Assembly (NCBI RefSeq): GCF_000184705.1
Contig: NC_014831.1
Coordinates: 1,984,001 to 2,048,000, forward strand
Direction: 5' to 3'
DNA: 64,000 bases
DNA from: Thermaerobacter marianensis DSM 12885
Lineage (GTDB): Bacteria; Bacillota; Sulfobacillia; Thermaerobacterales; Thermaerobacteraceae
Of this stretch, positions 20,203 to 21,855 are shown in pieces. How positions within the stretch are numbered: position 1 is the first letter of the stretch; every line of letters starts with the position of its first letter. The translations under genes were made by a program, and so were the position numbers. A model generated the notes under the pieces. It made no database searches and was not told the origin of the DNA. It saw only the letters and a list, made by a program, of their open reading frames with translations.

Positions 20203-20246
20203 CACGGCGGAAGGGCCGGGGACCCGTCCCCGGCCCTTCCGCCGTG
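20203..20246 (-). terminator. Long hairpin after the repetitive protein gene
   Basis: CACGGCGGAAGGGCCGGGG (from 20203) and CCCCGGCCCTTCCGCCGTG (to 20246) form a near-perfect stem of about 19 pairs with a small loop; on the minus strand it is followed by TTT. It separates the repetitive gene from lipA. Confidence 0.7.
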
Positions 20247-20281: not shown

Positions 20282-21058
20282 TCAGCTGCGGAAGGCGCCG
20301 CCGGTCTGCTCGTTGGCCGTGGCGGACTGCCACCTGGCCGAGTAGTTCTCCGCCGGGTCGTAGCTCTGGGCCGTGGCGCCGTACGGGGCGTGGCGGCTCG
20401 CCCCCGCCCCGCCGGCGCCGTACTGGCCCGCCTGGCTCTGGAACGGGCCGTACGGGGCCGCCGCCGTGGGATGGTACTGCCCGCCGTACTGCCCCGCCTG
20501 CCCGTACTGCCCCGCCTGGCCGTACTGCCCGGCCTGGTTCTCGAACTGGCCGAAGGCCTGCCCGTATTGCCCGGCTTGACCGAACTGCCCCGCCTGGTTC
20601 TGGAAGCCGTACTGGCCTGCCGCGCTGCCCAACTGGCCGCCGGCCTGGCCGTACGGGCCCGCCGCGCTGAAACCGGCCTGGCTGGTCATGCCGCCTGCGC
20701 TCGCCTGGGACTGCCAGCGGGAGCTGTAGTTCTCCGCCGGGTCGTAGCTCTGGGCCGTGGCACCGTATTGGGCGTGACGGCTTGCCCCCGCCCCGCCGGC
20801 GCCGTACTGGCCCGCCTGGTTCTGGAACGGGCCGTACGAGGCTGCGGCCGTGGGGTGGTACTGGCCGCCGTACTGCCCCGCCTGGCCGTACTGCCCCGCC
20901 TGGTTCTGGAACTGCCCGAAGGCCTGGTTCCCCAGGCCCTGGCCGCCGGCCGGCGACTGCCACTGGGACGTGTGCTGCTCCTGCGGGTTGTAAGACTGCG
21001 GCGTGGCCCCGTAGCGCGCGTGGCTCGGGCCACCGAAGGCGTTGGGTTCGTCCACCAT
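20282..21058 (-). CDS. Repetitive Gln/Tyr/Gly/Ala-rich protein, unknown
   Basis: 258 residues, not recognised. It contains no Lys, no Cys and no Ile, only one Val and two Leu. Two kinds of repeat occur. Short GQYGQA and NQAGQYG units fill the middle. A longer motif, HAxYGATxQSYxPxEN followed by a Trp-Gln-Ser, occurs three times (about residues 13-35, 94-116 and 226-248). The stretch from QYHPTAA to RWQS is duplicated almost exactly, giving DNA direct repeats at about 20331-20510 and 20721-20890. No signal peptide is seen. The start is clear: AGGGGGGATC before ATG 21058. A spore coat, spore-core or phase-separating role is possible; it is not a recognisable gamma-type SASP. Confidence 0.8.
20331..20890. 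repeat. Imperfect direct repeat of about 170 bases
   Basis: Segments about 20331-20510 and 20721-20890 are nearly identical over roughly 170 bases, both starting at the TAGTTCTCCGCCGGGTCGTAG block. Both lie inside the repetitive protein gene, so unequal recombination could change its length. Confidence 0.7.
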
Positions 21059-21474
21059 GATCCCCCCTGACCGCTAGCGGTTTCCAGGGACTAGATTGCG
21101 AAGCCCGCTGGCTGCTATACCTTCCAGTTGCCGCCAGGCCGGCCCGCCCAGCGTCCGCCCGCCTCCCGCAGGCGGGTGCTGGCGGATGAACCGGCGATCC
21201 GGCCCGCAACCATGGGGGCACCCTGCATCAAGGGGGTTGCACAGCCACCGTTCACAACCCGTGGGGGTGGCGAGACGGCCCGTGGCGCGTGGCGATGGCG
21301 AATCGACCCGTGGGTGCATCGCCCGGCGCCCCCGGTCGCCGGGAACGGGGCCGGCGAGCCGGCATCCGCGGTTGGGCGCCTCGCCCCCGGGCCGGTCGGG
21401 ACGGCCGCCCGGGAACGGCCATACAATGCCGTGGCGGCCCAGGCATTCGGACCAACCGGTCCGATCAGGAGGGA
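21059..21474. other. Intergenic region upstream of the repetitive gene and DUF1805
   Basis: 416 bases between two divergent genes. No credible additional gene. A one-mismatch copy of the dispersed motif (GGATGAACCGGC) lies at about 21183. A TACAAT at about 21422 may be the -10 element for the DUF1805 gene. Confidence 0.4.
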
Positions 21475-21855
21475 ATGCCCGTGGGAATGCCCGTGGTGGA
21501 GGTTCGGCCCATCCCCCTCACCGGCGGGACGGCCATCGGCGTCAAGGTGGACCTGCCCAAGACCCGGCTGGTGGCCATCGCCACGCCGGCCGGCTACATC
21601 ATGTGCGGCGCTCTGGACGTGCGCCTGCTGGACGACCTCCTGGGCGCCCGGCGCATCGTGGCCGGCCGCGCCCTGGGGGTCCGCGACTTCGACGACCTGC
21701 TCGACCGGCCGCTGGAGTCGGTCACGCACACGGCCCGGGCGATAGGGATCCAACCCGGCATGAAGGGCCGCGAGGCCCTGGAACGGCTCCTGGCGGTCGA
21801 ACCGGCCCCCGCGCCCGGGCCCGCGGCCGGGGGCGCGGGGGCGGCGGCGGGATAG
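21475..21855 (+). CDS. DUF1805 (YunC-like) protein
   Basis: 126 residues. The DUF1805 pattern is seen: GVKVDLPKTRLVAIATPAGYIMCGALDV followed by a RIVAGRALGVRDFDDLL region, with the conserved Gly-Tyr-Ile-Met-Cys-Gly centre. These small alpha/beta proteins are of unknown function. CAGGAGGGA precedes ATG 21475; a second ATG lies four codons on. The C-terminal 25 residues are Pro/Ala/Gly-rich and include a one-mismatch copy of the dispersed motif at about 21794. Confidence 0.8.
   Translation: MPVGMPVVEVRPIPLTGGTAIGVKVDLPKTRLVAIATPAGYIMCGALDVRLLDDLLGARRIVAGRALGVRDFDDLLDRPLESVTHTARAIGIQPGMKGREALERLLAVEPAPAPGPAAGGAGAAAG

Follow-up and report, generated by a model that had tools for sequence, protein, structure and literature searches.

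The window analyzed here is a stretch of 64,000 nucleotides from Thermaerobacter marianensis DSM 12885 (NC_014831.1, positions 1,984,001 to 2,048,000). Its reverse strand carries a gene encoding a repetitive protein, preceded by a ribosome-binding site and a promoter-like element and followed by a hairpin (Table 1). The original prediction placed here a 258-residue ORF at positions 20282-21058. The frame was confirmed, but translation starts more likely at GTG 21055, which gives 257 amino acids, because the upstream and protein alignments place the start of all four relatives at this position (GTG in three, ATG in one) and because the six-G ribosome site (21062-21067) lies 6 nt from this codon versus 3 nt from ATG 21058. 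The ribosome site, described as strong, is kept in the five orthologs. The long terminator reported after the gene corresponds to a perfect 21-bp hairpin, and a hairpin follows the stop codon in 5/5 orthologs, in four different sequences; its T tail is however limited to TTT, and a scan around the gene called no terminator. High expression of the gene is at most an inference from such sequence features.

Table 1. Coordinates, in the window, of the repeat-protein gene and of the features associated with it.
Feature	Position	Strand	Remark
Possible transcript end, 21-bp perfect hairpin after stop	20203..20246	(-)	Weak T tail (TTT only)
Repeat-protein coding sequence	20282..21055	(-)	257 aa from conserved GTG 21055; 258 aa from ATG 21058
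Conserved C-terminal tail	20285..20329	(-)	15 residues, from protein alignment of orthologs
Duplicated block, copy nearer gene 3' end	20324..20519	(-)	178/196 bases identical to other copy
Module 3	20330..20392	(-)	Residues 222-242
Duplicated block, copy nearer gene 5' end	20708..20903	(-)	Pairs with 20324..20519
Module 2	20714..20776	(-)	Residues 94-114
Module 1	20960..21022	(-)	Residues 12-32
Ribosome-binding site AGGGGGG	21062..21068	(-)	6 nt before GTG 21055; GGGGGGATC conserved in 5/5
Forespore-type (sigma-G/F-like) promoter-like element GTATA-N17-CAATCTA	21092..21120	(-)	Invariant in 5/5 species
-10 box CAATCTA	21092-21098	(-)	Part of promoter-like element
-35 box GTATA	21116-21120	(-)	Part of promoter-like element
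DUF1805 gene	21355-21855	(+)	Divergent to repeat-protein gene in 5/5 genomes

The description as a Gln, Tyr, Gly and Ala repeat protein was borne out by the module copies and by the composition: counted from 21055, Q (45), G (51), A (47), Y (22) and S (20) account for 185 of the 257 residues (72%), with 3 W, 15 charged residues and no K, C, I or V. At the composition of lpd and lipB, two proteins of the window used as reference (814 letters), the absence of K, C and I has a probability of about 2e-8, indicating that the bias is real. The protein of the window is thus free of Lys, Cys and Ile as announced, and Cys and Ile are absent from 5/5 orthologs, but one Lys is present in two of the five, so that lack of Lys is not a conserved trait. 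Orthologs contain 6-10% Tyr, 17-23% Gln, 3-5 Trp, 3-8 Arg and 0-1 Lys per protein, as well as uncharged stretches of 66-155 residues. No hydrophobic N-terminus or signal sequence was seen in their alignment, as judged by eye. An AlphaFold model computed from the five-row alignment had a mean pLDDT of 42.8, no residue at or above 70 and no secondary structure, and the protein is accordingly predicted to be unstructured.

The repeats of the window protein include a 21-residue His/Tyr/Trp module, present three times. The motif HAxYGATxQSYxPxEN initially proposed to occur three times fits two of these modules as written, the first one ending in EQ. The nearly exact 170-base duplication was recovered as a stretch with 158 identical bases (93%), embedded in two 196-base blocks identical at 178 positions, which indicates that the gene was enlarged through internal duplication. 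The number of modules and linkers differs among species: in T. marianensis and the relatives G001 to G004, the proteins measure 257, 290, 360, 404 and 332 residues and contain 3, 3, 4, 4 and 4 copies of YGAT-x(1,2)-SY, respectively. When the two end modules (60 codons) were compared, dN was 0.04-0.26 versus a dS of 0.49-0.96 in nine of the ten ortholog pairs, and the tenth pair (G001-G002) had a dN of 0 and a dS of 0.08. Such low dN relative to dS indicates that the modules are kept by selection on the protein, and it also backs the coding status of the frame. The module sequence YGATAQSY occurred in none of the full texts available for searching.

Used as query, the protein retrieved orthologs from 5 of 61 genomes, and a profile of the module gave matches in 5 of 154 genomes of the class, the own genome being included in both counts and the 149 others being negative. 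The carriers are all four Thermaerobacter genomes examined plus a MAG from their family. In 5/5 the gene lies between the divergent DUF1805 gene and lipA, which is on the same strand. The profile also matched 6 of 398 genomes sampled across the phylum, namely the four Thermaerobacter and two that were rejected (G168 and G431, E-values of 2.9e-4 and 1.9e-3). The latter were antisense artefacts, with frames of 88 and 114 amino acids devoid of repeats; facing them on the other strand are long open frames that, by eye, look like murB and an AsnC-type regulator. The search for the 16-residue motif, proposed as a check in the original prediction, thus gave credible matches to the module profile only in the Thermaerobacter family among the genomes searched. 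A first scan of genome contigs with a single protein as query yielded 25 stretches, none of which was confirmed, and the sole match of a second scan (QGUQ01000201.1, 4239 bases) was taken as the MAG G004 rather than a new relative. Elsewhere in the own genome, the protein query gave a weak match (34%, E 0.08). Taken together, these results indicate that the repeat protein is real, conserved and, among the genomes searched, confined to one family.

No Pfam or NCBIfam family matched the repeat proteins above cut-off. A weak match to PF21930 in 3/5 orthologs (best E 0.00029), which reached 13.2 bits for a cut-off of 27 on the window protein and covered its last module, is probably due to chance. 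To characterize the loose resemblance to Gln-rich spore proteins that had been noted, the proteins were compared with gamma-type SASP. The PF04259 profile matched none of the five repeat proteins at E-values up to 1, no protein in the own genome and none of the 154 class genomes at E-values up to 0.01, B. subtilis being matched as a positive control. The GPR-type cleavage site E-[VIFLM]-A-x-E (TEFASE-like) was absent from 5/5 orthologs, and the similarity of the five proteins to the B. subtilis gamma-SASP repeat peptide was reached by 83-463 of 500 shuffles. Neither profile, peptide alignment nor cleavage site therefore supports homology to gamma-SASP, and all the sequence criteria examined place the repeat protein outside that family. 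Similarly, the alpha/beta-type profile PF00269 matched seven places in the own genome, none of them at this gene.

The upstream regions of the five species retain three conserved blocks, GGAAGGTATAGCA, CGCAATCTA followed by CTGGAA, and the ribosome site GGGGGGATC, the remainder being quickly lost. GTATA and CAATCTA are separated by 17 nt in 5/5, with a spacer which itself diverged, and lie 33-36 nt before the start codon (in T. marianensis, 36 nt before GTG 21055 or 33 nt before ATG 21058). The consensus of forespore sigma factors is GYATR for the -35 box and CATNHTA for the -10 box, from which CAATCTA differs at one place. The pattern GYATR-N17/18-CAWNHTA, in which the W was chosen after CAATCTA had been seen, occurs at 10 sites in the 2.84 Mb genome (one contig, 2,844,696 bases), versus 1 for the reversed-pattern control. 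Two of the ten precede the repeat-protein gene and an alpha/beta-SASP gene (group B, 51 nt upstream); several others fall inside long frames or before genes without evident spore role, and the pattern alone is therefore not specific. On an 11-point promoter score, the repeat-protein gene reached 10 in 5/5 species. Among 2000 random 315-nt pieces drawn from the window as background, 20 reached 10 and none 11, and the real site may be present in some of these 20. The promoter scan detected no sigma-70 type promoter between 19700 and 21500. In C. difficile, sigma-F sites are distinguished by a G preceding the -10 box and sigma-G sites by an A following it; both are present in 5/5 species, making a dual use of sigma-F and sigma-G possible. 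From its sequence, the upstream element resembles promoters of the forespore factor sigma-G, perhaps also of sigma-F.

Published descriptions of the genus mention terminal round spores, rarely detectable, in T. marianensis and endospores in old cultures of T. composti. Profile searches detected alpha/beta-SASP, DUF1256/YyaC and SpoVAC/AE-type genes in 5/5 genomes of the family and GPR in four, the one without it being a 580-contig MAG. Two of the four alpha/beta-SASP groups share the promoter type of the repeat-protein gene in 5/5 genomes: group A with GCGTG-N18-CATATTA (score 10 in 5/5) and group B with GCATG-N18-CATGCTA (score 11 in 5/5). A weaker site, G[CT]ATC-N17-CA[AC]ACTA, precedes group D in 4/5. 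The upstream scan of the five genomes gave no site scoring at least 10 for gpr, SpoVAC or SASP group C; for gpr, SpoVAC and YyaC, the regions scanned were delimited from the profile match and not from mapped starts.

Three side observations were made on these spore genes. A conserved GNATA-N17-CATATAC lies upstream of the DUF1256 (YyaC) gene in 4/5 genomes (L098-L101; score 8-9 of 11) and looks forespore-type. SASP group C (L022, L054-L057), without a forespore-type promoter, may belong to an operon or depend on another factor. Group D (L023, L058-L061; in the own genome near C1:1532634-1532918) encodes proteins of about 110 amino acids in which the first half of the domain is present once more, seen as two PF00269 stretches per frame in 4/5 genomes, and because of this additional half they may bind DNA through a doubled helix.

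The conserved forespore-type promoter, in a genus reported to form spores, lends support to the idea of a Gln-rich spore protein, without the homology to gamma-type SASP, and the repeat protein is probably spore-specific. We give about even chances to the proposal that it is an unstructured protein of the spore core, made in the forespore and working, in this lineage, like a gamma-type SASP, that is as an amino-acid reserve. Its gene would be transcribed in the forespore by the sigma-G, possibly also the sigma-F, RNA polymerase and, for want of a signal sequence, the protein would stay in the forespore cytoplasm. It would remain unfolded and accumulate in the dormant core, building up, under the same switch as the SASPs, a sizeable store of Gln, Gly, Ala, Tyr and Ser. 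Upon germination it would be degraded to supply amino acids for outgrowth, the job ascribed to SspE in Bacilli. Since no ortholog has a GPR-type site, the usual degradation route would be missing and another protease would have to degrade the protein. The predicted auxotrophies of Thermaerobacter match a reserve role only loosely, such predictions being uncertain. The His/Tyr/Trp modules, set apart by variable Q/G/A/Y linkers, might serve as sites of processing or packing.

Storage alone does not account for the conservation of the 21-residue aromatic modules, so that a role in packing or condensation may be considered as well. In a gel or glass that packs or protects the core of an extreme thermophile's spore, the Tyr/Trp/His modules could be the stickers and the Q/G/A linkers the spacers, storage being secondary. 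This explanation, which draws on the same promoter evidence, on the purifying selection seen in the modules and on the long uncharged runs, is also in line with the existence in C. difficile of GerG, a gel-forming low-complexity spore protein (PMC5241399). We nevertheless consider it rather unlikely, as the AlphaFold model is uninformative on phase separation and, in the GerG study, the GerG repeats were dispensable for germination (PMC5241399). A broader version, which we hold to be unlikely, would make the protein a member of a new class of the forespore core, evolved independently in Thermaerobacteraceae, whose aromatic stickers in a Gln/Gly/Ala chain form a reversible gel or condensate serving both as amino-acid store and in heat resistance.

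Other explanations place the protein outside the core. A lineage-specific low-complexity protein of the cytoplasm, acting in growth or stress, would require that the promoter match be due to chance. The two boxes are short, 20 of the 2000 random pieces reach an equal score and several genome sites of the pattern appear unrelated to spores, but both boxes and their spacing are invariant in 5/5 species across diverged flanks and no sigma-70 type site was found between 19700 and 21500, making this possibility distinctly improbable. A structural component of the coat or envelope of the spore, made late in sporulation and cross-linked via Tyr or Gln, would suit the repeat architecture and the abundance of both residues (6-10% and 17-23%). 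It appears very improbable given that the upstream element, in a scoring that covered the forespore-type pattern, looks forespore-type rather than mother-cell type, that there is no signal sequence, and that 0-1 Lys per protein provides scarcely any partner for Gln-Lys bonds.

The protein is a candidate reserve protein which contains Trp and lies outside the Bacilli; spore storage or packing proteins of this type are not known to have been reported earlier from the Thermaerobacter family. If the role of gamma-SASP is indeed filled by it in this deep, very thermophilic lineage, amino-acid reserves of spores arose more than once, and the protein would provide a naturally occurring example of low complexity in a protein destined for a dehydrated core.

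Among known systems, GerG is similarly a low-complexity, repeat-bearing and lineage-specific spore protein with predicted disorder, but it has Asn/Met-rich GMPNNMSNNMNSNM repeats and is connected with the Csp proteins, which the mother cell produces (PMC5241399), and no common motif was seen by eye. The alpha/beta-type SASPs (PF00269) occur in the same genomes and, in groups A and B, have the same promoter type in 5/5; unlike the repeat protein, they have a GPR-type E-V/I-A site, and there is no sequence relation between them. Excerpts of the SASP literature further report that they bind DNA (PMC3533761, PMC8999374). Several features separate the repeat protein from gamma-SASP (SspE, PF04259): a length of 257-404 amino acids versus a size class under 100 (excerpt of PMC8452069), 6-10% Tyr and 3-5 Trp, a lineage outside the Bacilli, no family match, no GPR site and a similarity at shuffle level. 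Gamma-type SASPs are degraded to amino acids in outgrowth and do not bind DNA. They are reported to occur in most bacilli and to be missing from the genomes of clostridia (PMC3533761, PMC8452069), and are thought to serve as an amino-acid reserve (PMC8452069, PMC8999374). Like them, the repeat protein has repeats rich in Gln, Gly, Ala and Ser (for gamma-SASP, as in the peptides of PMC3003637), and shows low conservation between lineages; their sigma-G-type control may have its counterpart in the promoter-like site of the repeat-protein gene.
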